NCBI GenBank assembly: GCA_015065425.1 | Contig: SVQH01000018.1 | Coordinates: forward strand, 1-63,870 | Source of the DNA: Oscillospiraceae bacterium | GTDB lineage: Bacteria; Bacillota; Clostridia; Oscillospirales; Acutalibacteraceae | Direction of reading: 5' to 3' | DNA: 63,870 bases | Part shown: positions 1 to 59,978 of the stretch, one piece after another | Position numbering within the stretch: position 1 is the first letter of the stretch | Layout of the letters: each line of letters starts with the position of its first letter | Notes under the pieces: generated by a model | What the model was told of the DNA's origin: nothing | Seen by the model: only the letters and a program-made list of their open reading frames with translations | The model's database searches: none | Position numbers and translations under genes: made by a program

Positions 1-237
1 ACGTTCAAACTTAACTTTTCCGTCGATGAGAGCGAAAAGTGTATCGTCAGAGCCCTTACCTACGTTGTTGCCGGGGTGGATGTGTGTTCCACGCTGACGA
101 ACGATGATGGTACCTGCATTAACGAACTGTCCGTCGCTTCTCTTTGTGCCGAGTCTCTTGGATTCGGAATCACGGCCGTTACGGGTTGAACCCATACCTT
201 TTTTATGAGCGAAAAGCTGAATGTTTATCTTAAGCAT
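1..237 (-). CDS. rpmA: 50S ribosomal protein L27 (partial, runs off the left edge)
   Basis: Seventy-nine codons are visible from the ATG at 237-235 to the window edge, so the C-terminus is missing. The protein is the late-assembling bacterial L27, whose N-terminal tail reaches the peptidyl-transferase centre. It starts [14 protein letters not shown], followed by the [15 protein letters not shown] and [15 protein letters not shown] blocks typical of L27. Residues 6-10 (IQLFA) form the Firmicutes pre-L27 extension removed by the Prp protease between Phe9 and Ala10; this processing is established for Staphylococcus aureus L27. The gene lies 3 bp downstream of prp in the rplU-prp-rpmA operon, so substrate and protease are made together. 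Confidence 0.97.
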
Positions 238-240
238 TAC

Positions 241-546
241 TTACACCTCCGTTGTAACTGTTACATAGTCGGGGTAATCTTTTGAGAGCTCTTCAAGATG
301 AAGAAGAAGACCTTTTATGATATCCCGAGCAGCACTGTTGCCGCTTGTTTCAAACTGTAAAAATCCGTCTTTCACTTTTGCGGTATCTTTTTCGCCGAGT
401 ATCTCGGTGATGGTATTGACTGCCATATATGCAGCAGAGGAAACTGCGGCACAAACGATGTCAGAACCTTCTTCCGAAAAACCTGAGTGACCCTTTATGG
501 TGAAAAATGCGGAATTTTCACGGATACAAAATGATGCTTTGACCAT
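241..546 (-). CDS. prp: Ribosomal-processing cysteine protease Prp (YsxB family)
   Basis: This 101-residue protein matches the Prp/YsxB family in size and position. The catalytic His sits in GHSGF (His20) and the catalytic Cys in SDIVCAAVS (Cys32), the usual spacing. Prp removes the N-terminal extension of L27, encoded by the next gene, and the cut is needed for functional ribosomes in species whose L27 carries it. The start codon overlaps the rplU stop by one base (TAATG), so translation is probably coupled. A second Prp homologue lies in the phage module at 49.2-49.6 kb. Confidence 0.95.
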   Translation of the reverse strand: MVKASFCIRENSAFFTIKGHSGFSEEGSDIVCAAVSSAAYMAVNTITEILGEKDTAKVKDGFLQFETSGNSAARDIIKGLLLHLEELSKDYPDYVTVTTEV

Positions 547-857
547 TATGCGTTGATAGCTGCGATTTCTACCTTAGTATAGGGCTGTCTGTGACCGAGC
601 TTTCTCTTCTCGTTCTTCTTGGGCTTGTAGGTCATAACAGTGATCTTCTTAGCCTTGCCGTTCTTAAGAACTTTTGCAGCTACTGTGGCACCTGCAACAT
701 AGGGTGCACCTACCTTGATTCCGTCATCACCTGCAACTGCGATTACTTTGTCAAATACAACCTCGCTGTCGCTTTCAACGTCAAGCTTTTCGATAAAAAC
801 AACGTCGCCTGCTTCTACCTTATACTGCTTACCGCCGGTTTCAATAATTGCGTACAT
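546..857 (-). CDS. rplU: 50S ribosomal protein L21
   Basis: The 103-residue protein starts [14 protein letters not shown] and carries the L21 core, including the basic FDKVIAV...[15 protein letters not shown] region and the conserved GHRQPYTKV near the C-terminus. It binds 23S rRNA and assembles early into the large subunit. The start at 857 is preferred over upstream in-frame codons because it gives the canonical N-terminus and has an AAAGGAG ribosome site just upstream. It is the first gene of the rplU-prp-rpmA operon, with a strong promoter and a structured leader upstream. Confidence 0.97.
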
Positions 858-930
858 TGAATCTTTCTCCTTTATAAGTCTCGCTATGCAAGGCGGGATG
901 AACCACTTGTAAGCCTTGAATATGCGGCTT
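858..930 (-). ncRNA. Candidate L21 leader (autoregulatory 5' UTR)
   Basis: About 70 nt separate the predicted transcription start from the rplU start codon. The transcript can form short stems (for example GCC...GGC around 905-930 and CCCGCC...GCGAG around 880-897) and ends in the ribosome site. Firmicutes rplU operons often carry an L21 leader motif here. The position fits, but I cannot confirm the consensus fold by eye. Confidence 0.4.
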
Positions 931-934
931 AGGT

Positions 935-963
935 ATGATACCATAACGGTGTCAATATGTCAA
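935..963 (-). promoter_or_regulatory. Sigma-A-type promoter of rplU-prp-rpmA
   Basis: On the minus strand the -35 box TTGACA (963-958) and -10 box TATCAT (940-935) are 17 bp apart. Transcription would start near 928 and run through the leader into rplU. Confidence 0.8.
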
Positions 964-45730: not shown

Positions 45731-45787
45731 TATTTTTTGTTTTTTTGTTAATATCCGAGGGAAAAGAAAGGAGGGATGAAAAATAAA

Positions 45788-46060
45788 ATGGCGAAAAATC
45801 AGAATTCTTCCCGTTCAAAAGGCAGCGAGGAATATCTTGATGCCTGTGCACAGCTTCTATGTAAGGCGGCATATAAAATGTGCAGGGAATATTTCGGAGT
45901 AGGTACAGCAAAAGAAAAATGTGACCCTAAACTGCTGAAGGAGGCGTGTTCTGCGGTAAAGGAGGCGGTTGCCGTAAGTTCTGCTCTCGGAAGCAGCAAG
46001 GACTCATCGGGAGACGAGATAAGAGTATTGTTTTCTTTGCCGGAGGAGTATACACAGTAG
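45788..46060 (+). CDS. Candidate terminase small subunit
   Basis: This 90-residue protein precedes the large terminase gene, where TerS is expected. It is mostly helical, with SEEYLDACAQLLCKAAYKMC and DPKLLKEACSAVKEAVAVSS segments, which would suit a small helical oligomer. No helix-turn-helix is certain. The AAAGGAGGG site lies 12 bp before ATG 45788 and directly abuts an earlier ATG (45776), so 45788 is chosen. The call rests mainly on position. Confidence 0.45.
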   Translation: MAKNQNSSRSKGSEEYLDACAQLLCKAAYKMCREYFGVGTAKEKCDPKLLKEACSAVKEAVAVSSALGSSKDSSGDEIRVLFSLPEEYTQ

Positions 46061-46083: not shown

Positions 46084-47451
46084 GTGAAGGAATTGGTACT
46101 GGGAGAGCCCAATGACAGGCAGAAGCTGTTTTTAGAGGATTCGCACAGATATATAGCTTTCGGAGGTGCCCGAGGCGGAGGGAAAAGCTGGGCTGTGAGA
46201 GTAAAAGCAGTTCTTTTAGCTTTCAGGTATCCCGGAATAAAGATAATGATAGTAAGAAGGACATATCCGGAACTTCGGGCAAATCACATCAATCCTCTGA
46301 GAGTTCTTCTGTCATCATTCGCTCAGTATAAAGACAGCACGAAGGAATTTTTGTTTCCTAACGGTTCTCTTATTATGTTCAGGCATTGTGCCACTCAATC
46401 TGATATTGACAAATATCAGGGTACGGAAGTGGATGTTTTGTTTCTTGACGAGGCGACACAGCTTACGGAAGAAGAATATGACCGATTCAAGGCATGTGTA
46501 AGAGGTGTCAATTCATTTCCGAAGCGAGTTTATCTTACCTGTAACCCCGGGGGAGTCGGGCATGGTTTTGTAAAGAGGCTTTTTATTGATAAGGCATATA
46601 AAGAAGGGGAAAATCCTGAGGATTATGTGTTTTATCAAAGTCTTGTCACGGATAATAAGGCACTTATGGAAGCAGACCCCGAATATATAAGACAGCTGGA
46701 GGCACTTCCTCCGAAACTGAAAAAAGCATGGCTTATGGGGGATTGGAACATATTTGACGGGCAGTTTTTTGAAGAATTCAGGGATATCCCGGAGCATTAC
46801 AATGACAGAAAATTTACTCATGTCATAGCACCGTTTGAGGTGCCTTCTGACTGGAGGATAGTAAGAAGTTTTGACTTCGGCTTCAGAAAGCCTTTTTCCT
46901 GTGACTGGTGGGCGATAGATTATGAAGGAAGGGCATATCTGATATTGCAGCTTTACGGATGTACAGATATCCCCAATGACGGGCTTAAATGGCCTCCTGA
47001 CAGGATTTTTTCTGAAATACACCGCATAGAAAACGAACACCGATGGCTTAAGGGAAAGTTCATAGACGGAGTTGCTGACCCGTCTATATGGGACGCATCA
47101 AGAGGAGAGGCAATAATCGAGTCTGCGGACAGACATCTTGTATATTTTGCAAAGGGAGACAATAAGCGTATTCCCGGATGGATGCAGTGTCATTACAGAC
47201 TGAGCTTCAATGAAGAAGGAAAACCGATGGTGTACTTTTTTAATACTTGTACTCATGCTGTAAGGACTCTTCCGCTTCTTCAGTTTTCAGACACAAATCC
47301 CGAAGACCTTAATACAGACAATGAGGATCATTTTGCTGATTCGTTCAGATATTTCTGTATGTCAAGACCCATAAAGCCTCTGAGTGTAAAAAGTAAGGAA
47401 ATTACGGGAGATGATCCGCTTGAACTTTATGCACCGTATTCTTACCGTTAA
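46084..47451 (+). CDS. terL: Terminase large subunit
   Basis: This 455-residue protein drives DNA packaging. The N-terminal ATPase has Walker A GGARGGGKSWAVR, the coupling/Walker B VDVLFLDEATQLTEEE, and TCNPGGVGH. The C-terminal RNase H-like nuclease has FDFGFRKPFSCDWW (Asp), FIDGVADPSIWDAS (Asp) and NEDHFADSFRYFC (Asp). The start is GTG at 46084 with an AAGGAGGT site. The length and motifs fit an intact protein. It is followed by the non-coding repeat R2 and the portal gene. Confidence 0.93.
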   Translation: MKELVLGEPNDRQKLFLEDSHRYIAFGGARGGGKSWAVRVKAVLLAFRYPGIKIMIVRRTYPELRANHINPLRVLLSSFAQYKDSTKEFLFPNGSLIMFRHCATQSDIDKYQGTEVDVLFLDEATQLTEEEYDRFKACVRGVNSFPKRVYLTCNPGGVGHGFVKRLFIDKAYKEGENPEDYVFYQSLVTDNKALMEADPEYIRQLEALPPKLKKAWLMGDWNIFDGQFFEEFRDIPEHYNDRKFTHVIAPFEVPSDWRIVRSFDFGFRKPFSCDWWAIDYEGRAYLILQLYGCTDIPNDGLKWPPDRIFSEIHRIENEHRWLKGKFIDGVADPSIWDASRGEAIIESADRHLVYFAKGDNKRIPGWMQCHYRLSFNEEGKPMVYFFNTCTHAVRTLPLLQFSDTNPEDLNTDNEDHFADSFRYFCMSRPIKPLSVKSKEITGDDPLELYAPYSYR

Positions 47452-47485: not shown

Positions 47486-47558
47486 AGAAAACGGACATTC
47501 TGATAATATTTCCTCAGCCCCGTAAGTCATGGGACAATATACCGAAAGGAGAAAATCG

Positions 47559-49259
47559 ATGGAGAAAAATAACCGTAATAAGACTGAAAAGAAACGAGAA
47601 GACTTTTCCGGAATGCGTAGGGCAGTTATCGGGGAAGAAGAGATAAGAGAGGCTGTAAAAACTCTTAAGAAATATAAGGCTGCGAAAACCAATCTTGATG
47701 AAAGAGTCATTGAGAATGAAAATTGGTTCAGAATGCGTCACTGGCAGCAGCTCAGACGCGGTGAGAATAAAAACAGAAAACAGTCAGGCTGGCTTTTTAA
47801 TTCTATTATGAACAAGCATGCAGACCTTATGGATTCAATTCCCGAGTGCTCAGTGCTTCCGAGAGAGGAGAACGACCGAAGGGAAGCGGACAGGCTGTCA
47901 GGTGTTCTTCCCGTGATACTTGAAAGAAATAACTGGATGACGGTTTACTCTGATGCGTCTTACAGTAAGCTCAAAACGGGAACTGCAGTGTACAGCGTTT
48001 TATGGGATTCCTCTGCAGACGGGGGAGTTGGTGAAATCAGTATTAACAATACTGATATTCTGAATATTTTCTGGGAACCCGGCATCAGGGATATACAGAA
48101 AAGCAGAAATATTTTCCATGTTGACCTTGCAGATAATGACATTCTTACAGAAGAATATCCCTTTCTTGAAGGAACGCTCGGAAATGATTCCGGTGAGATA
48201 TTCTCATATAACTATGATAACAATGTGGATACTTCGGGAAAGTCATGTGTTGTAGATTGGTATTACAAAAAGAAAAAAGGGAACAGAACACTTCTTCACT
48301 ACTGTAAATTTGTCAACACCACACTTTTGTATGCTTCGGAAAATGACCCTGCTTATCAGGACAGAGGCTGGTATGAACACGGAATGTACCCATTTGTTTT
48401 TGATGCACTTTTCAAGGAAGAAGGAACCCCCGTGGGCTTTGGGTTCATTGATATTATGAAGGATGCTCAGGAGGAAATCGATATTCTCGGAAACGAGATA
48501 ATAAGAAATGCAAGGCTCGGGGCAAGAAAGAGATACTTTACGAGGATAGACGGTGCTGTAAACGAAGAGGAATTTGCCGATTTCAACAGGGATTTCGTTC
48601 ATGTAAACGGATCGTCCATAGGAGAGGAATCCATAAGAGAAATAGGTTTTACTCCGCTGTCATCCGTGTATATAACGGTGCTTAATAATAAAATTGCAGA
48701 GCTTAAGGAGACCAGCGGGAACCGTGATTTTACTCAGGGCAGTACTGTTGGCGGTGTTACATCGGGTGTCGCCATAAATGCTTTGCAGGAAGCGGGAAAC
48801 AAGATATCCCGTGATATGATAAATGCCACATATAATGCATTTTCTCAGATATGCACCATTGCCATTGAGCTTATCAGACAGTTTTACACAATCCCCAGAA
48901 GCGTAAGAATATTGGGTTCTGACGGAGAATGGCAGTATTCACTTTACGACAACAGTGTACTTAAGGGGGTGCTGTCTGACAATGATTTCGGGCTTTTCCC
49001 CGAGCTTCGTGCCCCTGTTTTTGATGTAAAGGTCAAGGCACATAAGCAGAATGCTTTTTCACGCTCAATGCAGAACAGCGATGCTCTGAATTTTTACAGT
49101 ATGGGATTTTTTGACCCTGAAAAGGCTGTACAGTCACTTGCTTGTATGGAGCTTATGGATATTGAAAACAAAGAGAAAATAAAATCCGTTATCAGTAAGA
49201 ACCGAATGCAGTATGAAGGAGGCGGAGAATACGGTAAAGATAGACTTTTACGAGAATAA
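47559..49259 (+). CDS. Portal protein (P22-like podoviral type)
   Basis: This 566-residue protein follows terL in the portal position. It opens with a charged tail (KNNRNKTEKKREDF) and then NWFRMRHWQQLRRGENKNRKQSGWLFNSIMNKHADLMDS. Later segments include KDAQEEIDILGNEIIRNARLGARKRYF and VTSGVAINALQEAGNKISRDMINATYNAFSQ, typical of portals. The portal forms the 12-subunit ring through which DNA enters and leaves the capsid. ATG 47559 has an AAAGGAG site. The P22-like label rests on length and the neighbouring adaptor and stabilization genes. Confidence 0.82.
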   Translation: MEKNNRNKTEKKREDFSGMRRAVIGEEEIREAVKTLKKYKAAKTNLDERVIENENWFRMRHWQQLRRGENKNRKQSGWLFNSIMNKHADLMDSIPECSVLPREENDRREADRLSGVLPVILERNNWMTVYSDASYSKLKTGTAVYSVLWDSSADGGVGEISINNTDILNIFWEPGIRDIQKSRNIFHVDLADNDILTEEYPFLEGTLGNDSGEIFSYNYDNNVDTSGKSCVVDWYYKKKKGNRTLLHYCKFVNTTLLYASENDPAYQDRGWYEHGMYPFVFDALFKEEGTPVGFGFIDIMKDAQEEIDILGNEIIRNARLGARKRYFTRIDGAVNEEEFADFNRDFVHVNGSSIGEESIREIGFTPLSSVYITVLNNKIAELKETSGNRDFTQGSTVGGVTSGVAINALQEAGNKISRDMINATYNAFSQICTIAIELIRQFYTIPRSVRILGSDGEWQYSLYDNSVLKGVLSDNDFGLFPELRAPVFDVKVKAHKQNAFSRSMQNSDALNFYSMGFFDPEKAVQSLACMELMDIENKEKIKSVISKNRMQYEGGGEYGKDRLLRE

Positions 49260-49584
49260 AGATGAACTCGTTTTAAGTGTCTCGGGACATGCAGGTTATG
49301 CCGAGAAGGGCAAGGACATCGTTTGTGCAGGAGTATCTGCCCTGTGTCTTTTGCTGAAACTTGCAGTTGAGAGAGTTTCCGAATCTGAGGGAACGGGTCG
49401 TGTTATCTGCAATGTGGAGGACGGAGAATTCTATCTGAGCGTGAAGGAACTGTCGTTTATCTCTTGCTCAGAAGAACTGAGGACACTTTTTGGTGCATGT
49501 TTTGCAGGATTTTCGGCTATAGAAAAGCTTTATCCTGTCAATGTGCACACTCACAAGCTTTTAATCCCTTTAGGGACTGAATGA
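49213..49584 (+). CDS. Phage-encoded Prp-like cysteine protease (putative prohead protease)
   Basis: This protein of up to 123 residues belongs to the Prp family. His26 lies in SGHAGYAEKG and Cys38 in GKDIVCAGVS, the same spacing as in the host Prp at 0.24-0.55 kb. It sits between portal and scaffold, where capsid maturation proteases are usually encoded. The scaffold next to it carries the Prp site LQLFA at residues 6-10. The start is uncertain: ATG 49213 has no ribosome site. An AAGGAGG lies within the first codons and is ideally placed for an ACG at 49231, which aligns with the host Prp start. It overlaps the portal gene by 47 bp. Confidence 0.85.
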   Translation: MKEAENTVKIDFYENKDELVLSVSGHAGYAEKGKDIVCAGVSALCLLLKLAVERVSESEGTGRVICNVEDGEFYLSVKELSFISCSEELRTLFGACFAGFSAIEKLYPVNVHTHKLLIPLGTE

Positions 49585-49631
49585 TATGACACTTCGGAAA
49601 GACGATGAAAAATTAAAAGGAGACAGAGAAA

Positions 49632-50438
49632 ATGAAAACAGATGAATTGCAGCTTTTTGCAGATAATTCTGCAGAGGTATCATCACAGAACACCACAGAA
49701 ACAGCGAATTCGGAGCAGGAATCGGAAAATGGTGCCGATGAGGGGACAGATTCTTATGAAGCAGAATTTGAAGAGCTCATCAAAGGAAAGTATGCGGGGG
49801 CTTTTTCAAAACGAACTCAGGGGATTATAGACAAGCGCTTTGCAAAATTCAAGGGCTATGAAAAAACAGCAAAGGCCTGTGAGCCTTTACTTGAAATGAT
49901 AGGCGGGAAATTCCCCGATATTGATGCCTCGGATCACGGGAAGCTTGTTGAGGCTTTTCTCGGCTCTGCTTACGGAAATGAAGAAGACAAAGCTGCCACA
50001 GCCGAAAAAACAAAAAAAGAACCGTCACCGCTTCTCAGAGCAGCAAGAGTGATGCTTGAAAAAAAGGCGGCAAGAGAAGTAGCTGAGTATTTTGACAGAG
50101 AGCAGGAAAAGCTCAGGGAGATATACCCTTCATTTTCTCTCGAGAAGGAGCTGGGCGAATCAGAGGATTTCCGCAGACTTCTCAATTCCGGCGTATCCCT
50201 TCGCCGTGCATTTGAAACAGTAAATCTTGAAAAAATAATGGGACAGGCATTGAAATATGCCGCCATGTCTGCAGGAAAGAAAACTGCAGATGCCATTAAA
50301 AATTCCGTGCGTGTTTCTGAAAATCCCCTGAGAGACACAGCCTCATCGGTTCAGAAAACCGATGTGAACAGCCTTACTGAGAAAGAGATAATGAAAATAC
50401 TCTCTCAGGTAAGTAAAGGTGCAAAAATAACATTCTGA
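49632..50438 (+). CDS. Capsid scaffold protein with an N-terminal Prp cleavage site
   Basis: This 268-residue acidic, mostly helical protein lies between the protease and the major capsid gene, the usual scaffold place. Residues 6-10 are LQLFA, so MKTDELQLF would be removed by a Prp-type cut before Ala10. A Gln/Glu/Ser/Thr-rich linker follows, then charged helices (FSKRTQGIIDKRFAKFKGYEK, LREIYPSFSLEKELGE) and a C-terminal lysine-containing helix (LTEKEIMKILSQVSKGAKI) that may bind the capsid. AAAAGGAG precedes the ATG. Confidence 0.8.
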   Translation: MKTDELQLFADNSAEVSSQNTTETANSEQESENGADEGTDSYEAEFEELIKGKYAGAFSKRTQGIIDKRFAKFKGYEKTAKACEPLLEMIGGKFPDIDASDHGKLVEAFLGSAYGNEEDKAATAEKTKKEPSPLLRAARVMLEKKAAREVAEYFDREQEKLREIYPSFSLEKELGESEDFRRLLNSGVSLRRAFETVNLEKIMGQALKYAAMSAGKKTADAIKNSVRVSENPLRDTASSVQKTDVNSLTEKEIMKILSQVSKGAKITF

Positions 50439-50455
50439 TTAAAAGGAGACAATTT

Positions 50456-51739
50456 ATGAAATTCAACGAGATAACACTTACACATTTTTCAGCAGGAGAT
50501 GTGTTGAATTCAACACAGGGCACAGTGGAAAACGGTGCAGTTGCAAATCCTGATGCCCTTTCTGCCGAAATGAAAACCTTCTATGACAAGACACTCATTA
50601 CACTTGCAGGTGCAAATCTTATCCATGAACAGTTTGCACAGAAAAGACCCATTCCCAAGGGAGGCGGCAAGACCATTGAATTCAGAAAGTTTTCAAAGCT
50701 TCCCAAGGCATTAAAGCCTATTACGGAAGGAGTGACTCCTGCAGGCAACAAGCTCAGTGTATCTGCAGTTTCATGTACCGTGGATCAGTACGGTGATTAC
50801 ATTGAGCAGACAGATCTTCTGGAGCTTACCGCTATTGATAACACTATTGTTGAAGCCACAAAGGAACTGGCTTCACAGGCAGGACTTACACTTGATACTG
50901 TTGTAAGAAACGAGCTTATGGGCGGTACAAATGTAATGTATGCTCCTGAGGTTACAGACGGCAAGGAGACAGAGATACTCAGCCGTGCGGATATTACGAA
51001 AAACTGTAAGCTCCGTGTCAAGGACATCTTCAAGGCAGCAGCTCAGCTCAAAGCTGTGAATGCTCCTAAAATTGACGGCAGTTATGTAGCCATCATTCAT
51101 CCTTATGCTGCTTATGACCTTATGCAGGAAGCAGGTGAGCAGTGGATAGGTATCAGTAAATACGTAAATCCCGAAAACATTCTTAAGGGTGAAATAGGTA
51201 CTCTCGGCGGTGTCCGTTTTGTGGAAAGCACCGAGGCAAAAATTTACGGTCCCGAAAAAATCAGTGATGATATTTCAAGACTTACAGTAAAGACTGCGGT
51301 CACTTCCCAGAGTGCTAAGGTTGCTGTTGAAGAAGTGCTTACTGCGGGAACTTTCTCAAAGCCTGTGGCAGTTTATTGTGCAGGAGCGGAGAATACCGTT
51401 ACAGGTATCGAAAACAGCGGCGGTGTTTCATATCTTCTTCTCGGGACTGCCGTATCTTCTCTCAAAGCAGGTGATACCGTCTGCGGCAGAGGCGGCGGCA
51501 AGGACGGCACAGCAGTATTCTGTACACTTTTCCTTGGTGAAAACGCTTACGGTGTCACAGATATAGAAGGCGGCGGACTTGAACACATCGTAAAACAGAA
51601 GGGCTACGGCAATGACCCTCTTAATCAGAGAAGCTCTGTGGGCTGGAAGGCAACAAAGGTTGCAAAGAGACTTCTTGAGGAGTATATGCTCCGTGTTGAA
51701 TCAGGTTCCGAGTTTTCGATGACTTCTGAGACAAACTGA
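50456..51739 (+). CDS. Major capsid protein, N4-gp56 family
   Basis: This 427-residue HK97-fold-type capsid protein belongs to the N4-gp56 family: FYDKTLITLAGANLIHEQFAQKR, then PKGGGKTIEFRKFSKLPKALKPITEGVTP and VDQYGDYIEQTDLLELTAIDN. The middle has YVAIIHPYAAYDLM and GTLGGVRFVES. The N-terminus MKFNEITLTHFSAG contains LTHF-SA, resembling a Prp-type site; cutting after Phe11 is inference. An insertion-like domain covers about residues 285-375. The gene lies 17 bp after the scaffold stop, with an AAAAGGAG site. Confidence 0.9.
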   Translation: MKFNEITLTHFSAGDVLNSTQGTVENGAVANPDALSAEMKTFYDKTLITLAGANLIHEQFAQKRPIPKGGGKTIEFRKFSKLPKALKPITEGVTPAGNKLSVSAVSCTVDQYGDYIEQTDLLELTAIDNTIVEATKELASQAGLTLDTVVRNELMGGTNVMYAPEVTDGKETEILSRADITKNCKLRVKDIFKAAAQLKAVNAPKIDGSYVAIIHPYAAYDLMQEAGEQWIGISKYVNPENILKGEIGTLGGVRFVESTEAKIYGPEKISDDISRLTVKTAVTSQSAKVAVEEVLTAGTFSKPVAVYCAGAENTVTGIENSGGVSYLLLGTAVSSLKAGDTVCGRGGGKDGTAVFCTLFLGENAYGVTDIEGGGLEHIVKQKGYGNDPLNQRSSVGWKATKVAKRLLEEYMLRVESGSEFSMTSETN

Positions 51740-51765
51740 TATTTTTGATTTACAAAAAACTCTGC

Positions 51766-51790
51766 TCCGGAAAATATTTCGGAGCAGAGG
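51766..51790 (+). promoter_or_regulatory. Stem-loop after the major capsid gene
   Basis: CTCTGCTCCG and CGGAGCAGAG form a near-perfect hairpin with a short A/T loop, in the gap between the capsid gene and the next small gene. No T-run follows, so it is probably an mRNA processing or stability element rather than a full terminator. Confidence 0.7.
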
Positions 51791-51810
51791 AAAAGAAAAG
51801 GAGATTAATA

Positions 51811-52026
51811 ATGAAAAAAACGAAGGAAAACATGAGAACAGTATTTATTCCCAGACTTTCAAAAAATGACGACTCTCTTTTTGTTGCAGTAAACGGGAAA
51901 CGTATACTTGTAAAAAAGGGTGAAACTGTTGAGCTTCCCGCACCCTTTGCAGAGGTTATTGAAAATTCCGTAAAAGCGGGAGAACAGGCAGAGAATTTTA
52001 TTGCATCTGTGACAAATGTAAACTGA
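51811..52026 (+). CDS. Small phage protein of unknown function
   Basis: This 71-residue protein starts at ATG 51811 behind AAAAGGAG; the longer upstream in-frame ATG lies before the stem-loop and has no ribosome site. The sequence is beta-rich (TVFIPRLSKNDDSLFVAVNG, KRILVKKGETVELPAPFAEVI), and its VNGKRILVKKGETVELP resembles small virion proteins that follow capsid genes in gut phages. It may be a capsid or connector accessory protein. Confidence 0.65.
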   Translation: MKKTKENMRTVFIPRLSKNDDSLFVAVNGKRILVKKGETVELPAPFAEVIENSVKAGEQAENFIASVTNVN

Positions 52027-52041: not shown

Positions 52042-52407
52042 ATGACGGTCAGAGAGATAATAAAAAAGGCAGACGAAGCATATCCTAATGTTTTTTCTTT
52101 TTCGCAGAAAGCCGGATGGCTTGAAGAGCTTGATAACAGGGTGTTTTCAGAGGTGTTTTCAAGATATGAGGACAGTGAAGAGAAATTTACGGGAGGGTAT
52201 TGTGAAGATGATGAAACAGAGCTTCTGATTGGTAAGCCATACGATGATATTTATATCAGATACCTTGTTATGAATTTCGATATTGTGAATTCAGATATGG
52301 TAAGGTATCAGAATTCTGCGGCACTTTTCAATTCACAGTATATTGCCTTCGGCAACTTCTATAACCGCACCCACAGGATTTCAAGTGCCGTAATAGACCC
52401 GCATTAA
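52042..52407 (+). CDS. Putative head-tail adaptor (P22 gp4-like position)
   Basis: This 121-residue helical protein opens with TVREIIKKADEAYPNVFS, then has WLEELDNRVFSEVFSRY and YDDIYIRYLVMNFDIVNSD, and ends with FNSQYIAFGNFYNRTHR. Its size and position between capsid and stabilization-type genes suit the adaptor that lengthens the portal channel. The sequence match is not strong enough to be certain. Confidence 0.6.
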   Translation: MTVREIIKKADEAYPNVFSFSQKAGWLEELDNRVFSEVFSRYEDSEEKFTGGYCEDDETELLIGKPYDDIYIRYLVMNFDIVNSDMVRYQNSAALFNSQYIAFGNFYNRTHRISSAVIDPH

Positions 52408-52419
52408 GGAGAGATATTT

Positions 52420-54303
52420 ATGTTGTATCCTGAATTACGCAAAGTAAAGGAAAAAATAAGCAGAACCGATGTTTTTACGGGGATAAAGGCAACGGGCAGG
52501 ATATCGGAAGGTAAATTCCGTGATATGGTAAACATTTCCTTTGATGAATTTCCGTGTATGAGAACAAGACGAAAAAGGGCAATATGGACAGGCAGAACTT
52601 CTCTTGAATCAGGTGCTGTGGATTATAACGGCGGAGAGCATATTTATTACGGTAAAGGAATTCTTGAGGCTGTATCTGTCGCAGGTAAGTTTCTTTTTTG
52701 TTCTGAAAAATACCTCTATGTAGACGGTAAGCGGCTGGGAGATATAGAACTTGACCGGTCTGTTGAAAAGCGGAGTATTATCGGTTTCGGAAGAAATTTG
52801 CTTGTTCTTCCCGAAGGCGTATATATTGAGTTTTCGGATGACGGAAAATATAAATACACCGATATGCACTCGGAGATAGTATTCTCTGATGTTTCTGTTT
52901 CTTTTTGCAACAGTGCTTATGAAGATGTTACCGTAAAAAACAAGTATCTTCCGCCTTTAGTTCCTTCGGTAGGAGACACTTATATCAGAAAAGAAAACGG
53001 AGAAATGTATCTTTGGGAGTATACTTCAGGCGGTACATGGGAGAAAAACGGCAGACTTTATGTAAACATCAGAGCGGAGGGTATCGGTGAAGGGTTCTAT
53101 GTCGGAGAAAAGATAAGTATAGCCGATGATATTTTTTCAGCAGAAAAAGGCAGTGTAGTTGATGCTTCAGATGACAGAATAACGGTGGATATTATTCTTG
53201 ATGAAGCTTCATCTGAACACGGTGAACTGAAGTTCAGAAAATATTTTCCTTTGATGGATTTTGCAGTTGAACACAATAACCGTATATGGGGCTGTCGTTA
53301 CGGAGAGGATATCGACGGAAATTTTGTCAATGAGATATATGCCTGTGCTCCCGGGAATCCTTTGAAATGGTATTGCTATGAGGGTACATCTATGGACAGC
53401 TTTGCTGCCACACTCGGCTGCAGCGGAGAGTTTACAGGTGCTTGTGTGCTGGGGAATGATGTGCTGTTTTTCAAAGAAGATTACCTGATAAGAGTAAGCG
53501 GAGATTCTCCTGCCACCTTTTCTGTCCAGACCGTCCCGTTTCAGGGTGTGGAAAAGGGAAGCAGCAAAAGTATCGTCCGTATAGCCGACCGTCTTTTTTA
53601 TAAGGGGAGAGAGGGTATCTGTGTTTTTGACGGTTCGTCACAGATGGTAATATCGCGTTCTCTGGGAGACGGGAAATTCAGCGACGTTATTGCAGGTGCC
53701 GTCAACGGTAAATACTATGCAGCAATGACAGACGGCAACGGCAAACGCAGTATTTATGTTTTTGACAGTGCTGTATCTTACTGGAGCAAGGAGAACTGTG
53801 CAGATATACGATATATGATAAATATGGGCGGTTGTCTGTTTTTTGTGGAGCTGACAGAAAGAGTTGATGATTATGCCAATTTGTACAGATTTGTTTTATG
53901 GGACGAAAAGAAGAAAAATGATGCACCTGATATACTTGGGGCTTTTCTTGAAAATTCCGATCATGTTTATGTAAGTGAGGACAGTGTGTCATGGTTTGTT
54001 GAAACAGGGGAAATAGGAGAAAACACACTTCCCGAAAGGCAGATTCTGAGAAGTATTCTGATAACAGCTTCGCTTGTTGATGAATCGGATATAAAAATAT
54101 TTATTTTGCCCGAGGGGGAAACTGAGTGGATAAGTCTCGGCATTATATCTTCAGCAAGGAACGGTGCATTCAGTGTGCCAGTAAATACACCCCCGTGTCA
54201 CAGTTATATCATCAGAATTGAGGGACAGGGGGAGTGTATGATTCATTCCATTGTCAGACGGAGTGAAATAACAAGTGAGGTGAAAAATATTGGCAGACGA
54301 TAG
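52420..54303 (+). CDS. DNA stabilization / tail hub protein (beta-propeller-like)
   Basis: This 627-residue protein begins LYPELRKVKEKISRTDVFTG and is rich in beta-strands with repeated blade-like segments such as FAVEHNNRIWGCRYG, NDVLFFKEDYLIRVSGD, VRIADRLFYKGREGICVFDG and NGKYYAAMTDGN. The pattern suits the beta-propeller tail proteins of podoviruses (P22 gp10-like or stabilization protein) that close the portal and carry the tail. It starts 12 bp after the adaptor gene with an AAGGAGAG site and overlaps a 48-residue ORF by 14 bp. Confidence 0.7.
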   Translation: MLYPELRKVKEKISRTDVFTGIKATGRISEGKFRDMVNISFDEFPCMRTRRKRAIWTGRTSLESGAVDYNGGEHIYYGKGILEAVSVAGKFLFCSEKYLYVDGKRLGDIELDRSVEKRSIIGFGRNLLVLPEGVYIEFSDDGKYKYTDMHSEIVFSDVSVSFCNSAYEDVTVKNKYLPPLVPSVGDTYIRKENGEMYLWEYTSGGTWEKNGRLYVNIRAEGIGEGFYVGEKISIADDIFSAEKGSVVDASDDRITVDIILDEASSEHGELKFRKYFPLMDFAVEHNNRIWGCRYGEDIDGNFVNEIYACAPGNPLKWYCYEGTSMDSFAATLGCSGEFTGACVLGNDVLFFKEDYLIRVSGDSPATFSVQTVPFQGVEKGSSKSIVRIADRLFYKGREGICVFDGSSQMVISRSLGDGKFSDVIAGAVNGKYYAAMTDGNGKRSIYVFDSAVSYWSKENCADIRYMINMGGCLFFVELTERVDDYANLYRFVLWDEKKKNDAPDILGAFLENSDHVYVSEDSVSWFVETGEIGENTLPERQILRSILITASLVDESDIKIFILPEGETEWISLGIISSARNGAFSVPVNTPPCHSYIIRIEGQGECMIHSIVRRSEITSEVKNIGRR

Positions 54304-54436
54304 GATGTACAAAAACACTGAGGATATTTACAGGCTTCTTTTGTCGCTTAAAAAGGAAATGAGTGAACTTACCGTACAGGTACGGGCTATGAGAAAAGAA
54401 ATGAAGGGAGATGATATTGGTGCAAAAAGTAAATAA
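54290..54436 (+). CDS. 48-residue coiled-coil phage protein
   Basis: A short ORF begins with TTG at 54290, 7 bp after a GAGGTG site, overlapping the upstream stop by 14 bp. It encodes MADDRMYKNTEDIYRLLLSL followed by a KKEMSELTVQVRAMRKEMKG helix, which forms heptads of a short coiled coil. It overlaps the next gene by some bases in another frame. The clear ribosome site and helical pattern support it; its function is unknown. Confidence 0.6.
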   Translation: MADDRMYKNTEDIYRLLLSLKKEMSELTVQVRAMRKEMKGDDIGAKSK

Positions 54437-55316
54437 GAAAAAAGCCGTTGAAGAGGCTTTAAGTGAGCTTTCAAAGAATAAGAGCACTTCAGACGGCAGT
54501 ATACAGGACAGTCGGGAGACAAGTTCCGGTTTTCTTGCTGCTGCAAAGGATGTGGTAAATAATGTTGCTGATGCGGTTTATTATCCCGTTACAGCACAGA
54601 AATATCTCAATAAGCTGATGGCAGAATCAGATTCATTCTCTTATGATATGAAAGCAGATCCTGTTTATAAGCAGTACCGTGATATGTATGAGAAAGAGAG
54701 TGAACTTGCGGCAAAGGATATTTTCGGTCTTGCCACAGCACTTACAGGAGGATACGGGAATTCTTATGCGGCTACGGCAGTTTCGGGAGTTGTCAGTGAT
54801 TATCTTAACAAACTTACGGAAAAGGGACAGCAGCTGCGTGATAATGCTTATGATGAACACCGTGACAAAATAAGCGATCTTTATGCTGCATATAAAGAGT
54901 ATGCCACCATTGCAGACAAAAAGTATGAACGACGGCAACAGGAAAATGCAGCAGAAAAGGCGGAGGAAAAGGCTGTAGCTCAGGCACTTAAAGACTTTGC
55001 CTTTGATGCTGCGGATGTCGGAGATTACAGTTTTCTTGAACAGCTGGGTATAAATACCGACAGCTTAAAGGAAAAAGATGCTCTTGAAAAGGCAGATCTT
55101 TTTGCAAAATACGGGGATTATTCGGGACTTGCGGCATCGGGAATTGATATTTCCAAACTGAATGAGGAGGAAAGTTATGAGCTTGCCCGTCTGTTTGCAG
55201 AATATGGAGATTACTCTCTTCTTAATCTCATTGGGGTTGATACGGACAACATTGAAACAAAGGATTATTATAACCGTTTGCTTCTGTGGGCAAGATATCT
55301 TAAGGCTTTAAGATGA
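54420..55316 (+). CDS. Internal virion (ejection-type) protein with GDYS repeats
   Basis: This protein of about 298 residues is helical, with an Ala-rich middle (ADAVYYPVTAQKYLNKLMAE, GYGNSYAATAVSGVVSDYLNK) and a charged coiled coil (KKYERRQQENAAEKAEEKAV). Its last third holds three units of about 33 residues with the pattern (A)xxGDYSxLxxxGIDxxxL. Its place before the lysis and fibre genes fits an internal or ejection protein. AAGGGAG lies 9 bp before GTG 54420; the upstream ATG 54411 is too close to it. Confidence 0.65.
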   Translation: MQKVNKKKAVEEALSELSKNKSTSDGSIQDSRETSSGFLAAAKDVVNNVADAVYYPVTAQKYLNKLMAESDSFSYDMKADPVYKQYRDMYEKESELAAKDIFGLATALTGGYGNSYAATAVSGVVSDYLNKLTEKGQQLRDNAYDEHRDKISDLYAAYKEYATIADKKYERRQQENAAEKAEEKAVAQALKDFAFDAADVGDYSFLEQLGINTDSLKEKDALEKADLFAKYGDYSGLAASGIDISKLNEEESYELARLFAEYGDYSLLNLIGVDTDNIETKDYYNRLLLWARYLKALR

Positions 55317-55855
55317 TAAAAATTTATATAAATGCGGCACACACCTCTTTTTCTCCGGGAGGTGTGTGGGGTGAAAGAACAGAGCATGAGGATATGCTGA
55401 AGTTTACGAGAATGCTTTCAATAGAGCTGGAAAGAGATCCCGATATTTCATGTAAGGTTTTTACGGGGGATCTCAGAAAAACGTTTACGGGGTATGATGT
55501 TGTGCTTTCATTTCACAGGGGGACAAATATTAAGAACAGTGAAAAACACGGGGCACAGGTATTTGTACAGGAGAATGCATCTGCAGATATACAGTATGAA
55601 GCGTTCAGATTGCTTGAAAGCATAAGCTCGGAAAAATATTTCAGAATGCTGGGTGTACATACAGCCACAAGTAAAAATATTCCTGCAAGTATCAATCATA
55701 CGGGTTGTGAGAGGACATTTCTGTTTCATATAGGCTTTATTGATTCACAAAGAGATAACAGATTGTTTGACAGCTGTTATGAGGAACTCGCACGGGAACT
55801 TTCGGAAAGAATAAAAGAAGTGTTTAAGGAGGAGAAAAATGAAGATAACACCTGA
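55313..55855 (+). CDS. Amidase_3-like protein with altered catalytic site
   Basis: This 180-residue protein resembles the N-acetylmuramoyl-L-alanine amidase_3 fold: NAAHTSFSPGGVWGE at the start (His10), a Glu in TEHED (24 or 26), VVLSFHRGTN (His68) and LFHIGFIDSQRDNRLFD. These give the three zinc-ligand positions. In active enzymes the last motif reads E-x-GF; here it is H-x-GF (His139), so the usual catalytic Glu is replaced. It may be an inactive, binding-only or structural version. It overlaps the genes on both sides. Confidence 0.6.
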   Translation: MIKIYINAAHTSFSPGGVWGERTEHEDMLKFTRMLSIELERDPDISCKVFTGDLRKTFTGYDVVLSFHRGTNIKNSEKHGAQVFVQENASADIQYEAFRLLESISSEKYFRMLGVHTATSKNIPASINHTGCERTFLFHIGFIDSQRDNRLFDSCYEELARELSERIKEVFKEEKNEDNT

Positions 55856-56705
55856 TTTTCAAAGACTTCATACGGGAGAAAACAAATCGCGGGTGATTCT
55901 TGTTGATATAAGTGACCTTCTTGTGAATGTTACAGCAAGACTTTCTTTTGTGACTCCCAGGGGAAGAATTTTTATAACAGATCCGCTGAAATTTACTGAT
56001 GATGTATGCAGGTACCGTATTCCCGACAATGTTCTTGACGGAAAGGGATTGCTTCTCGTTCAGCTGAGTGCATACGGAAATGATGACTATGTCATAAAAT
56101 CTCCCGTAGTTGAATTTCCTGTTTATTCTTCCGTAGATGATATGAGCTGTCCTGCGGTGAGTGAAGAAGGACTCAGAAGTCTTTCGGAACTGCTTGAAAT
56201 GGCAGAAAGTAAGCAGGATAAGCTTATTTTTGATGATGCTCCCGTAACAGGAAGTCTTAATCCTGTAACATCATCCGGTATAGCACAGGCCCTGAAGGAT
56301 ATCGCTGAAGAAATAAGTGCGGGAACTGATGGTTTTTCTCCTGTTGTTTCGGTTAATTATGTCGCCGGGGGACATGAAATTACGATTACCGATAAAGAAG
56401 GGGAGAAAATATTTATTGTTTATGACGGAGAAAAAGGTGAGAAGGGCGATAAGGGTGACAAGGGGGAAAACGGAGCAAACGGAGCCAAGGGCGACAGAGG
56501 CTCTGACGGTTATTCGCCCGTAAAAGGAATTGATTATTTTGACGGAGAGAAGGGAGAGCCGGGTATTCCCGGTGAGAAGGGGGACAAGGGAGATCCCGGG
56601 GAGGACGGTATCACACCTGTAAGGGGTGTCGATTACTGGACTGAAGCTGATAAGGCAGAGATAAAAAGCTATGTTGATGAAGTGATACTCGGAGGTGAGT
56701 GGTAA
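55839..56705 (+). CDS. BppU-type baseplate/receptor-binding protein with collagen-like repeat
   Basis: This 288-residue protein has an N-terminal BppU-like domain (KITPDFQRLHTGENKSRVI, RIPDNVLDGKGLLLVQLSAY, SPVVEFPVYSSVDDM). A short helix with a tail-fibre type motif follows (KQDKLIFDDAPVTGSLNPV, then TSSGIAQALKDI). A collagen-like Gly-x-y stretch lies at about residues 205-260 (GEKGEKGDKGDKG, then GEPGIPGEKGDKGDPG). It ends with GVDYWTEADKAEIKSYVDE. Trimeric Gly-x-y fibres serve as rigid stalks for receptor binding. It overlaps the LRR gene by one base. Confidence 0.82.
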   Translation: MKITPDFQRLHTGENKSRVILVDISDLLVNVTARLSFVTPRGRIFITDPLKFTDDVCRYRIPDNVLDGKGLLLVQLSAYGNDDYVIKSPVVEFPVYSSVDDMSCPAVSEEGLRSLSELLEMAESKQDKLIFDDAPVTGSLNPVTSSGIAQALKDIAEEISAGTDGFSPVVSVNYVAGGHEITITDKEGEKIFIVYDGEKGEKGDKGDKGENGANGAKGDRGSDGYSPVKGIDYFDGEKGEPGIPGEKGDKGDPGEDGITPVRGVDYWTEADKAEIKSYVDEVILGGEW

Positions 56706-57544
56706 TGAGTGTTCAGTCAAAAATGACAGCCATAGCATCGGGGCTGCGTACACTTTCGGGTACGGAAAACAAAATGGGTCTTGATGCCATGAATTCTCAT
56801 GTTGCAGATGCAAATGATACCGTTGATACCCAGACGGGGCTTATAAGTCAGATAAAATCGGCACTTCAGGGAAAAACTGCAGCGGGAGAAGGCAAACCCG
56901 GACAGGAGAAGGATTTCAATACAGAGAAAAACGGTGTGTTTACGGTAGAACCTGATGAGGGGTATGTACTTACAAAGGTCACTATGGCGGTAGATGTTCC
57001 TGAAGAAAAGCCTGAACAGACAAAAACAGTAGATATTACGAATAACGGAACTGTAAACATTGCCCCTGATGCAGGTAAAACACTTTCGGGGGTTACAGTG
57101 AACGTAAATGTCCCCACCGGCGGAGGCAGTGGCAGTGATGACGGAATGCTTGCCGCCGTTTTGTCAAGAACAGTGACTTCTCTGAATGTTCCTGCAGGAA
57201 CCGCAAAGCTTGGTCTTTATGCTCTGAGAAACTGTGATATGATGACGGCTGTTACTCTTCCCGAGGGACTCACTGCGATTGAAGGGTCGGCATTTTATAA
57301 CTGTACTTCTCTCGGAAATATTGAAATTCCTTCAACTGTAACACTTGTTGATTCACAGGTTTTTTATAACTGTACGGCTCTGAGCACTGTAACATTCAAG
57401 GGAAAACCGGCAACTATTTACTATAATGCATTTAACCGTTGTACGGCATTGACGGATATTTATGTGCCCTGGGCTGAAGGTGAGGTTGCAGAAGCACCCT
57501 GGGGTGCAACGTCAGCCAAAATTCATTACAATTCGGAGGTGTAA
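56705..57544 (+). CDS. Phage tail protein with BspA-type leucine-rich repeats
   Basis: This 279-residue protein has an N-terminal helical segment (VQSKMTAIASGLRTLSGTEN, LISQIKSALQGK), a middle beta domain (EKNGVFTVEPDEGYVLTKVT), and BspA-type LRR_5 repeats in the last third (MMTAVTLPEGLTAIEGSAF, LGNIEIPSTVTLVDSQVF, LSTVTFKGKPATIYYNAF). LRRs of this type bind surface proteins or glycans, so it is probably a receptor-binding or fibre component. ATG 56705 is 9 bp from GGAGG. Confidence 0.8.
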   Translation: MSVQSKMTAIASGLRTLSGTENKMGLDAMNSHVADANDTVDTQTGLISQIKSALQGKTAAGEGKPGQEKDFNTEKNGVFTVEPDEGYVLTKVTMAVDVPEEKPEQTKTVDITNNGTVNIAPDAGKTLSGVTVNVNVPTGGGSGSDDGMLAAVLSRTVTSLNVPAGTAKLGLYALRNCDMMTAVTLPEGLTAIEGSAFYNCTSLGNIEIPSTVTLVDSQVFYNCTALSTVTFKGKPATIYYNAFNRCTALTDIYVPWAEGEVAEAPWGATSAKIHYNSEV

Positions 57545-57547
57545 AAG

Positions 57548-59104
57548 GTGAGTAATATAAGCGACAACACGGAAGCTTTGCAGGATATTCTTGATGCCGT
57601 GAATGACCTTCCCGGAAGTGTATCCGATGACAGTCATACTCATGATGACAGATATTATACCGAAGGAGAGACGGATGCACTGCTTCTTATGAAAAGTGAC
57701 AAGAACCACGACCACGACGGAAGATATTATACCGATGATGAGACAGATTTGCTTCTTTTGAGTAAGAGTGATGTTACTCATTCTCATGATGAAACATATA
57801 ATACAAGGGAAGAAATAACTGCTCTTCTCTCGGGGAAAAGTGATGTGTCACATAAGCACAGTGAGTATGCAGATAAAACGGATATACCCACGGTCCCGTT
57901 AAATGTATCGGAATTTGCCAATGATGTGGGATATGTTAACTCGACCCTGATGAATGAGGCACTGTCCGTAAAGAGTGATATAGCTCATACTCACGGTGAA
58001 TATGCTCAAAAACAACATACTCACGATTATGCAGATAAAAAGCATGACCACTTATGTATAGTAAGTTTTCCGGGACCAATAACAGTATCAGGCTATTTGT
58101 CCTGTTCTATTGCAACTTCGCCAAGTTTTGAAAACAGTATTTATGGTGACGAGTTAAGAATAGAAGGTAATCAAAGTGCCGTTATAGCAAGTCACGGAGG
58201 TTATATTGCCAATGATTCTTATGAAGTCTGTTTATGTGCAAGCGAATTATGTGAAGCAACCGAAGATGCATTAAATGCTTTTGCAACAGGTCTTAAGACA
58301 AAAGTGAACGGACAAAATACTTTTGCAGCAGGCTATAAAAACACAGCCAATAACAATCAATTTGTAATAGGAAAAAACAGCAGGGAAGTGACAGGCTGTT
58401 CAGATACCGATGAACAAACGGATGATAGTTCCGTTTTTATAATCGGATACGGGACAGAACATACACCTGCAAATGCAATGAGAGTGACTTCATCAGGTAA
58501 ATGCATGGGAGCGAGTGCTTTTGTCGGAAGCGGTGCTGACTTTGCTGAGTACTTTGAATGGCTTGACGGAAATCCCGATAACGAGGACAGACGAGGCAGA
58601 ATAGTCACTCTTGACGGTGACAAAATAAGATTTGCTGTTTCTGAAGATGATTATATCTTAGGTGTTGTATCAGGCTCGGGCTGTTTTATCGGAAATTCAC
58701 AGAGTGAAGAATGGCAAGGAAAATATCTTAAGGATATATTCGGAGAAAATCTCACCCGGCAAGCGGAAGTACCTGAAAGTATTAAAGAAAAGAAAATACT
58801 TGTAGAAGATGAAAAGGGAGAAAGGGTTGAACAAACGATAACTGAAGTCATTCCTGCACACACAGTAACGCAGTTTATTGTCAATCCCGATTATGACCGT
58901 GAACAGGAATATGTAAGCCGTGAGTTCAGAAAAGAATGGTCTCCTGTAGGCTTCCACGGTCAGATAGTTGTAGCGGATGACGGAACTTGTCAGGTTAACT
59001 CATATTGTAAACCTTCAAAAAACGGTATCGGTACGGCAGCTGAAAGCGGTTTCAGAGTTATGGCAAGACTTGATGATACGCATATCAGGGTTCTTGTTAA
59101 ATAG
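57548..59104 (+). CDS. Tail fibre with His-rich repeats and peptidase_G2-type C-terminus
   Basis: This 518-residue protein starts with GTG behind GGAGGTG. The N-terminal 170 residues hold repeats of the form H-x-H-D-(D/G)-RYYT-(E/D)-x-E-T-D-x-LL, which in fibres coordinate metals along a trimer. Residues ~185-310 are a beta-rich domain encoded by DNA of different codon use. The C-terminal 200 residues match the peptidase_G2 (IMC, intramolecular chaperone/autocleavage) type: SGADFAEYFEWLDGNPDNED, GRIVTLDGDKIRFA, and EWSPVGFHGQIVV. Such domains assist trimer folding and are cut off. Confidence 0.8.
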   Translation: MSNISDNTEALQDILDAVNDLPGSVSDDSHTHDDRYYTEGETDALLLMKSDKNHDHDGRYYTDDETDLLLLSKSDVTHSHDETYNTREEITALLSGKSDVSHKHSEYADKTDIPTVPLNVSEFANDVGYVNSTLMNEALSVKSDIAHTHGEYAQKQHTHDYADKKHDHLCIVSFPGPITVSGYLSCSIATSPSFENSIYGDELRIEGNQSAVIASHGGYIANDSYEVCLCASELCEATEDALNAFATGLKTKVNGQNTFAAGYKNTANNNQFVIGKNSREVTGCSDTDEQTDDSSVFIIGYGTEHTPANAMRVTSSGKCMGASAFVGSGADFAEYFEWLDGNPDNEDRRGRIVTLDGDKIRFAVSEDDYILGVVSGSGCFIGNSQSEEWQGKYLKDIFGENLTRQAEVPESIKEKKILVEDEKGERVEQTITEVIPAHTVTQFIVNPDYDREQEYVSREFRKEWSPVGFHGQIVVADDGTCQVNSYCKPSKNGIGTAAESGFRVMARLDDTHIRVLVK

Positions 59105-59183: not shown

Positions 59184-59978
59184 ATGGCATTTTTAATACC
59201 CGATAAAGTACGTACCGAGTACGGGCTTGAAATAAAAGAAAAGATCCTTCCCGCAGCATTGAAGCCGGACACAAAGCTTTCAAACGGAACGGGAAAGGTT
59301 GAGTACATAACCATTCATAACACAGATGATATCAATGAAGCGGCAGATACAAACGATGCTGAACAGTATGCAAGAGCCACATTCAACGGTAATATGGGCG
59401 GAGTGACGGTTCATTATTACATAGATGAAACGGATTGCTGGCAGATACTGAAAGAAGATGAGATAGGTTATCATGCAGCAGACGGCAAAACGGGTCCCGG
59501 GAACGGAACGAGCCTTGCCATTGAAATAATTATGGACGGTTCAGGCAGTAATGCTGATACTGCAGCAGAGAACAGAGGGGCAAAACTTGCCGCAATTCTT
59601 CTTTACAGACACGGCCTTAGTATCGACAGACTTGCAAACCATAATATATGGTACCCGAATAAATACTGTCCTGCATATATTCTTCCTCATTGGGATGAAT
59701 TCAAAAACAAGGTTGAGGCTTATCTTCTTGAGATAATTTCAACTGACAATAATATAAATGAGGGGGCGGGAAAAGTGGCTGACACAGACGATATTATTTA
59801 CAGAGTTCAGGTAGGTGCATTCAAAAACAAGGAAAACGCTGACAATTATGTAAAAACCTTAAAAGCGGCAGGCTTTGAGGCATTTACTGTTATTGCAGGT
59901 TATGTTGACGGAGACGGACAGATAACCTCTGCTGATGCAAGAACTGCTCTGAGGAAATCGGTAGGACTGGAGGAATAA
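59184..59978 (+). CDS. Endolysin: N-acetylmuramoyl-L-alanine amidase with SPOR-like tail
   Basis: This 264-residue lysin has an amidase_2 domain: VEYITIHNTDD (zinc His45), GGVTVHYYIDETDCWQIL, then GTSLAIEIIMDG and LANHNIWYPNKYCP (His153, Cys162). It cleaves the amide between muramic acid and the peptide. A linker and a SPOR-like repeat follow (IIYRVQVGAFKNKENADNYV, KTLKAAGFEAF), which in other proteins binds denuded glycan strands. The last 26 residues resemble half of a type I dockerin. Holin and XhlA-like genes follow, forming a lysis cassette. Confidence 0.9.
   Translation: MAFLIPDKVRTEYGLEIKEKILPAALKPDTKLSNGTGKVEYITIHNTDDINEAADTNDAEQYARATFNGNMGGVTVHYYIDETDCWQILKEDEIGYHAADGKTGPGNGTSLAIEIIMDGSGSNADTAAENRGAKLAAILLYRHGLSIDRLANHNIWYPNKYCPAYILPHWDEFKNKVEAYLLEIISTDNNINEGAGKVADTDDIIYRVQVGAFKNKENADNYVKTLKAAGFEAFTVIAGYVDGDGQITSADARTALRKSVGLEE

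Follow-up and report, generated by a model that had tools for sequence, protein, structure and literature searches.

The window analysed here, 63,870 nucleotides of contig SVQH01000018.1 from an Oscillospiraceae bacterium (assembly GCA_015065425.1), carries a cluster of genes for a phage-type particle, and between the genes for its portal and scaffold proteins lies a gene for a cysteine protease of the Prp family, which is known for the trimming of ribosomal protein L27. Our comparative analysis indicates that this module Prp is very probably a dedicated protease for head maturation that acts on the scaffold and capsid proteins encoded next to it. Support is provided by a candidate cut site in the capsid protein of all 102 clusters of related loci that carry the protease as opposed to none of seven Prp-free copies in short-L27 hosts, by fusions of the protease to the scaffold, and by hosts in which L27 is short. 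The prohead protease that the initial annotation had proposed from the letters of the window thus gains strong support from comparison.

The module protease and its candidate substrates

The open reading frame (ORF) of the module Prp, flanked by those for portal and scaffold, contains the motifs SGHAGY with His26 and KDIVCAG with Cys38 and matches PF04327 in a profile search (E 8e-16, 58.5 bits, cut-off 27) as well as PHROG 4478 'peptidase', which confirms the homology and the location given by the initial annotation. Gly25, His26 and Cys38, and with them the catalytic histidine and cysteine, are invariant across 31 aligned Prps, and the protein is predicted to have the Prp fold. Its gene does not occupy the gap between rplU and rpmA; this position is filled by the host's own prp, which adjoins rpmA within the same window and had not been mentioned before. 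A search of the whole genome, the assembly of which is 95% complete, retrieved these two Prps and no third. They represent separate lineages, and the module Prp is kept under purifying selection. The start position used by relatives corresponds to 49231 in the window, where the codon is ACG. It lies 8 nt after a GGAGG sequence, and an in-frame ATG is present upstream of the latter (window 49213–49236). ATG or GTG is found at the Prp start in all 19 other loci of the genus that were examined (18 genomes), and the same ACG recurs in L003, a metagenomic contig encoding an identical capsid protein.

Both proposed substrates have a Prp-type site close to the N-terminus. The scaffold starts with MKTDELQLFA, LQLFA being residues 6–10, and the capsid protein starts with MKFNEITLTHFSA, LTHFSA being residues 8–13. 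L27, encoded on the minus strand and truncated by the window edge, has the classical extension with a Prp-type site at residues 6–10. All three sites had been noted in the initial annotation and are present as claimed. When the window was searched with a degenerate DNA version of the motif, two occurrences were found where 1.72 are expected, which is no rarer than chance; the motif alone is weak evidence, and it is its position and conservation that make it significant. The most likely cuts by Prp follow Phe9 in the scaffold and Phe11 in the capsid protein; they would strip off short, hydrophobic N-terminal peptides while the prohead of a podovirus-like particle assembles or directly thereafter. 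Cleavage itself, the stage at which it takes place and the choice of the module Prp over the host enzyme are inferred from sequence comparison.

Coupling of protease and candidate cut sites in related loci

Relatives of the capsid protein were collected from IMG/VR (best 80 of 146) and GTDB genomes (best 80 of 88) and complemented with further loci from genomes of the same genus and order and with two GenBank phage contigs. Of 251 loci, 250 were usable and formed 143 clusters with less than 90% capsid identity between clusters; the module of the window is represented by L003. Clusters were regarded as Prp-bearing when the roughly 5 kb preceding the capsid gene encoded a Prp or when the scaffold was fused to one. 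Sites were scored with a family matrix and, independently, with a matrix built only from 18 published L27 sites (PMC9405229, table 2; threshold at least 6). With the family matrix, a site was found in 14 of 369 control N-termini (TerL, the terminase large subunit, 2/86; portal 1/109; g7 7/104; g8 4/70). The L27-only matrix retrieved 61/99 capsid and 56/91 scaffold N-termini compared with 2/264 control proteins, and in the Prp-bearing group 70/102 capsid and 63/101 scaffold N-termini. On this matrix, the capsid site of the window (TLTHFS) scores only -1.5, as calculated for the identical L003 protein; it counts as a site on the basis of the family matrix and the genus relatives.

Features characteristic of a head protease emerged from this comparison. 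The Prp gene is part of the head operon beside those for portal, scaffold and capsid in the window, and it stands beside the capsid gene, or is fused to the scaffold gene, in 102 of the 143 clusters. The protease is accompanied by cognate sites, with a capsid site in 102/102 clusters as compared with 0/7 Prp-free copies in short-L27 hosts, and a scaffold site in 83/101, the remaining cluster being without a scaffold call. A Prp in this position with sites in the neighbouring proteins, for which the initial annotation had suggested looking among Prp homologues of gut phages, recurs in these clusters and in phages phiS13 and phiFL3A. In 14 further clusters a Prp is encoded elsewhere in the genome or contig; nine of these have a capsid site, ten a scaffold site and one, L217, neither. 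Two clusters include an assembly without L27, one having both sites (L206, a cluster that also holds members with Prp in the genome) and the other only the scaffold site. Too little upstream sequence is available for 12 clusters, all of which have the capsid site. The remaining six (fragments, unchecked, or no Prp found) include four with a capsid site. Among these six, the genome of L353 holds Prps elsewhere, whilst both Prp and site are missing from L073 and L355; L073 is a 45 kb viral contig and agrees with the rule. For L191 (G067, G301) and L207 (G070) a site but no Prp was found, and as L27 is likewise missing from these assemblies, the rplU-prp-rpmA stretch may be unassembled.

In hosts with a short L27, capsid sites follow the module Prp. 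In eight genomes (G284 with two copies, G348, G396, G246, G178, G283, G089, and G205 with one of its copies), L27 starts with MAHKKG, no L27-linked Prp was found and a Prp adjoins the capsid gene. All nine copies with their own Prp have a capsid site. It is absent in all seven copies without module Prp, namely those in G057, G059, G061, G336, G379 and G415, where no Prp was found by Pfam search, and the second copy in G205, where none lies beside the capsid gene. Completeness is 97–98% for G057, G336, G379, G415 and G205, and the contig of G061 has just 904 bases upstream. Judged by eye, the capsid proteins of most of these Prp-free copies start approximately where cut relatives would start. 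A scaffold stretch in one of these seven copies, L212, SCLRRFWE, is above threshold and has no small or acidic residue after Phe. The Pfam model performs weakly on some module Prps, as that of G089 was not found and that of G205 fell below the cut-off; both align to the profile built here and keep His and Cys. G283 is 68% complete and has a weak capsid site (score 5.1).

A Prp domain followed by a scaffold domain in one reading frame was found in eight distinct ORFs from seven genomes. These eight have a Prp-type site where protease and scaffold join, several with an internal start and ribosome-binding site next to it; L312 has none. Both domains also share an ORF in two GenBank phage contigs. 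Furthermore, scaffold and capsid sites within a locus resemble each other more than under chance pairing (266 identities versus 210.1 ± 6.3 for 68 loci with both sites; 0/5000). Many related sites are unlike that of L27, with Asp or Gly after the cut (F/D, F/G; the slash marks the cut). When an acidic state is defined as Asp or Glu in the scaffold and Asp, Glu or Asn in the capsid protein, it occurs in both proteins in 15 cases, only in the scaffold in 6, only in the capsid protein in 2 and in neither in 60, and requires about 10 parsimony changes per protein on the capsid tree. A short His–Cys loop of the NPG type is common in F/D loci; as further F/D loci have quite different loops, no single specificity residue of Prp is claimed. 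The view of the initial annotation that the substrates mimic L27 thus applies to the scaffold site of the window and has to be qualified for the family, as many relatives have F/D or F/G sites, and sites tend to match within a locus and occur where L27 lacks the extension.

Known head proteases and alternative explanations

In lambda, protease C and scaffold Nu3 share one reading frame, and the protease folds of P2 and lambda are unrelated to that of Prp. Protease and scaffold are separate genes in the window, in contrast to both phages. The fusion in P2 (PMC6893505) occupies a single reading frame just as in the eight Prp relatives. Phages phiS13 (Oenococcus) and phiFL3A (Enterococcus) have the gene order portal, Prp, minor head, scaffold, capsid. 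They resemble the module in that a Prp annotated as 'peptidase' or DUF464 follows the portal and matching sites are present in scaffold and capsid protein, and differ from it in that the latter two are not matched by the profiles used here and that the annotation states no role as head protease. Streptococcus phage Cp-1 reportedly encodes a protease that trims its capsid protein, a report ascribed to Martin et al. 1998. This protease has been assigned to clan CR (PMC9405229). By profile, orf13 of Cp-1 is a distant Prp (E 2.7e-7), and we infer that it is the published protease. An LQxFA site was not seen within residues 1–75 of the capsid protein of Cp-1; the genome plan is unlike that of the module, and orf13 stands as a separate gene. 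In fecal phage contig MT835606, sites are present in three proteins near its Prp; the third protein besides scaffold and capsid (L361:7673 onward) starts with an LQLFA site. A tblastn search with the module Prp matched 8 of 50,697 GenBank phage records, so that close relatives are rare among named phages. The literature searched does not describe Prps encoded by phages together with corresponding sites in the scaffold and capsid proteins of the same phage, although an earlier mention is possible.

A close parallel for the sites is Staphylococcus phage 80alpha, for which two papers (PMC5744158, PMC9405229) describe an L27-like, Prp-type F/A cut near the N-termini of both scaffold and capsid protein. 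There, the enzyme is supplied by the host. In the module, the protease gene sits between those for portal and scaffold, and in its relatives protease and sites are present or absent together, sites can differ from that of L27 and the protease can be fused to the scaffold. According to PMC5744158, cleavage of the 80alpha capsid and scaffold proteins is not needed for viability and an intact scaffold N-terminus is essential. The peptide may therefore act in assembly, with the cut as a finishing step.

A spare L27-processing enzyme that aids ribosome assembly while particles are made, with incidental motifs in capsid and scaffold, would fit the membership of the module Prp in the family of the ribosomal Prp and the classical extension of L27 in this host. 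It is scarcely conceivable in view of the eight short-L27 genomes that keep module Prp and capsid sites, the Prp–scaffold fusions of relatives, the lack of the capsid site in Prp-free copies of short-L27 hosts and the separate lineages of module and host Prps. There is also little likelihood that the ribosomal Prp of the host does the trimming and the module Prp is redundant: the purifying selection on the latter speaks against this, as do the many Prp-bearing loci with non-L27 sites (F/D) and the fact that hosts without ribosomal Prp show capsid sites only where the module has a Prp, even though 80alpha provides a precedent, the scaffold site of the window resembles that of L27 and 13 of the 14 clusters with Prp only away from the capsid gene have a capsid or scaffold site. 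Finally, the N-terminal peptides could be assembly or targeting signals that need no cut, Prp acting on another protein. Such a role would agree with the essential, yet not necessarily cleaved, scaffold N-terminus of 80alpha (PMC5744158). It appears very improbable given that most of the seven Prp-free capsid proteins begin, by eye, at about the cut position of relatives and that fused ORFs have the site at the protease–scaffold junction.

The reading of the module Prp as a dedicated head protease has to be weighed against a number of points. The ACG at its start means that translation may be weak or begin upstream. As the host has a Prp and its L27 a matching site, the host enzyme could also cut, and by analogy with 80alpha cleavage in this module may be dispensable. 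The scaffold site was not called in 18 of 101 Prp-bearing clusters, and L217 is an exception with a host Prp and no site. The absence of Prp from whole genomes rests on a Pfam model that missed the divergent Prp of G089, and the comparison of nine with seven copies amounts to about five versus four lineages, so that little weight should be put on an exact P-value. Many of the N-termini scored with the family matrix had also served to train it, which is why the independent L27-only figures matter, and because the clusters are related, P-values overstate their independence. The co-variation tests likewise treat loci as independent of shared ancestry. On the capsid tree, loci with an acidic residue after the cut group together (10 changes versus 17.6 with shuffled labels for the capsid protein), and this state is thus common to relatives. 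Three sister pairs have unlike states in the scaffold, and just one of them also has unlike states in the capsid protein.

The particle gene cluster and its inheritance

TerL, portal, Prp, scaffold and capsid genes form a single operon-like run in the window, within a particle cluster that spans 45.8–60.0 kb and has open reading frames throughout (Table 1).

Table 1. Genes and predicted cut sites of the particle cluster and host genes used for comparison (window positions)
Feature	Position	Strand	Remarks
Prp-family cysteine protease, proposed head-maturation protease	49213..49584	+	123 aa; PF04327; His26, Cys38
Scaffold protein, proposed substrate	49632..50438	+	PHROG 13908; role by position and relatives
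LQLF/A site in scaffold, residues 6–10	49647..49661	+	predicted cut after Phe9
Major capsid protein, proposed substrate	50456..51739	+	PHROG 1357, PF25209
LTHF/SA site in capsid protein, residues 8–13	50477..50494	+	predicted cut after Phe11
Portal protein	47529..49259	+	PHROG 156
Terminase large subunit (TerL)	46084..47451	+	
Putative terminase small subunit	45776..46060	+	position only, no family match
Small head-module protein	51745..52026	+	PHROG 15239
Small head-module protein	52042..52407	+	PHROG 12105
Virion protein	52420..54303	+	PHROG 511
Module protein, conserved in genus	54411..55316	+	no family match
Endolysin-like protein	55313..55855	+	
Collagen-like tail fibre	55839..56705	+	
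BspA-type leucine-rich repeat protein	56699..57544	+	
phi29-like pre-neck appendage with Peptidase_G2 domain	57548..59104	+	
Amidase endolysin	59184..59978	+	Amidase_2 and SPOR
Ribosomal Prp of the host (comparison)	241..546	-	
Ribosomal protein L27 of the host (comparison)	1..237	-	cut by window edge
Ribosomal protein L21 of the host (comparison)	546..944	-	presumed from sequence likeness and position

The capsid gene is present in 23 of 25 relatives of the genus, G020 having only a fragment of it where the contig ends, and is absent from all ten genomes sampled from the family's other genera. When the order was sampled more widely, matches were obtained in 60 of 394 genomes, some of them from the family. 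TerL was found in 21 of 26 genomes of the genus and in all 12 with a completeness of 90% or more, and 21 of 25 relatives have two or more Prps. Pairwise distances of eight module genes follow those of rpoB (Mantel r 0.68–0.79, n 14–20, 0/2000 permutations), for which rpoB was anchored by tblastn, the window's own assembly giving no rpoB match. The ratio of nonsynonymous to synonymous substitution rates (dN/dS) is 0.04–0.43 across module genes in close pairs where it is computable. Neither Pfam and PHROG scans of most main ORFs of the window between 35.0 and 63.8 kb nor the ten ORFs around the modules of two relatives revealed integrase or replication genes, and the neighbours scanned in the window and these relatives look host-like. 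Left or right flanks are common to some genomes and not to others. The main TerL and main capsid genes lie on different contigs in G004, G009, G010, G018 and G020, where contig breaks are possible. In another genus (g80) the capsid gene is patchy, with 12 of 60 genomes and 12 of 36 near-complete ones. G014 has two module copies that differ from each other; the second precedes a gene for a 2346-aa protein (L135, L164), and its capsid N-terminus is the same as in the 31.7-kb viral contig L007, so that the fixed copy may exist side by side with true phages of this family.

The cluster is probably a vertically inherited, domesticated element, and an ordinary prophage is improbable. The term 'phage module' in the initial annotation understates what the cluster is. 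On balance, vertical inheritance, host-gene surroundings and scans without integrase or replication genes lead us to favour a particle resembling a gene transfer agent (GTA) as its product over an ordinary temperate phage. Related viral contigs of 30–50 kb and the second copy in G014 would agree with another reading, in which the cluster provides the structural genes of an active temperate phage specific to the genus and the rest of the phage genes escaped notice or are located elsewhere. This is unlikely, since the neighbours in the window and two relatives are host-like, near fixation in the genus together with agreement with rpoB is unusual for a mobile prophage, and the capsid gene is patchy in the other genus tested. 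A decayed prophage remnant without present function might be recognised by scanned neighbours lacking integrase and replication genes and by an unusual ACG at the Prp start, but is improbable considering the open reading frames, the presence of TerL in all near-complete genomes of the genus, the dN/dS values and the module distances that follow rpoB.

For a domesticated GTA-like element, the closest published case is FpGTA from Faecalibacterium, which is podovirus-like and comprises a domain-less candidate for the small terminase subunit, TerL, portal, scaffold, capsid and lysis genes and is present throughout a genus of gut Clostridia (PMC12946183). The main text of that paper does not contain the word protease.

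Further observations concern individual proteins. The Peptidase_G2 domain of the pre-neck appendage is of a self-cleaving type, which may point to a second maturation cleavage in the module. The lysin in the module of a relative (G021; L133:5517–6395, minus strand) combines a GH25 lysozyme with a dockerin domain, and by eye the amidase lysin of the window ends in a dockerin-like stretch. Outside the cluster, the window encodes a 2417-aa, likely surface protein with Listeria–Bacteroides repeats (27609–34862) and a TraX-family protein flanked by metabolic genes (40316–41098).

A wider picture, in which a working GTA has become fixed throughout a genus of rumen and hindgut Clostridia, the specificity of its Prp co-evolves with two substrates independently of the ribosome, and the ribosomal Prp together with the L27 extension is a branch of an older phage head-maturation system, is put forward tentatively, as possible rather than likely. 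Interest in Prp as a target for antibiotics comes from its trimming of L27. Our comparison indicates that a large family of phage and phage-derived Prps serves head maturation and has predictable substrates, and gives one explanation for bacteria that possess a Prp in the absence of a long L27. The pairs of enzyme and substrates provide a natural series for studying change in protease specificity. With the vertically inherited module, bacteria of rumen and hindgut gain a further candidate gene transfer agent, and mass spectrometry could be used to look for its particle proteins and their cut sites.

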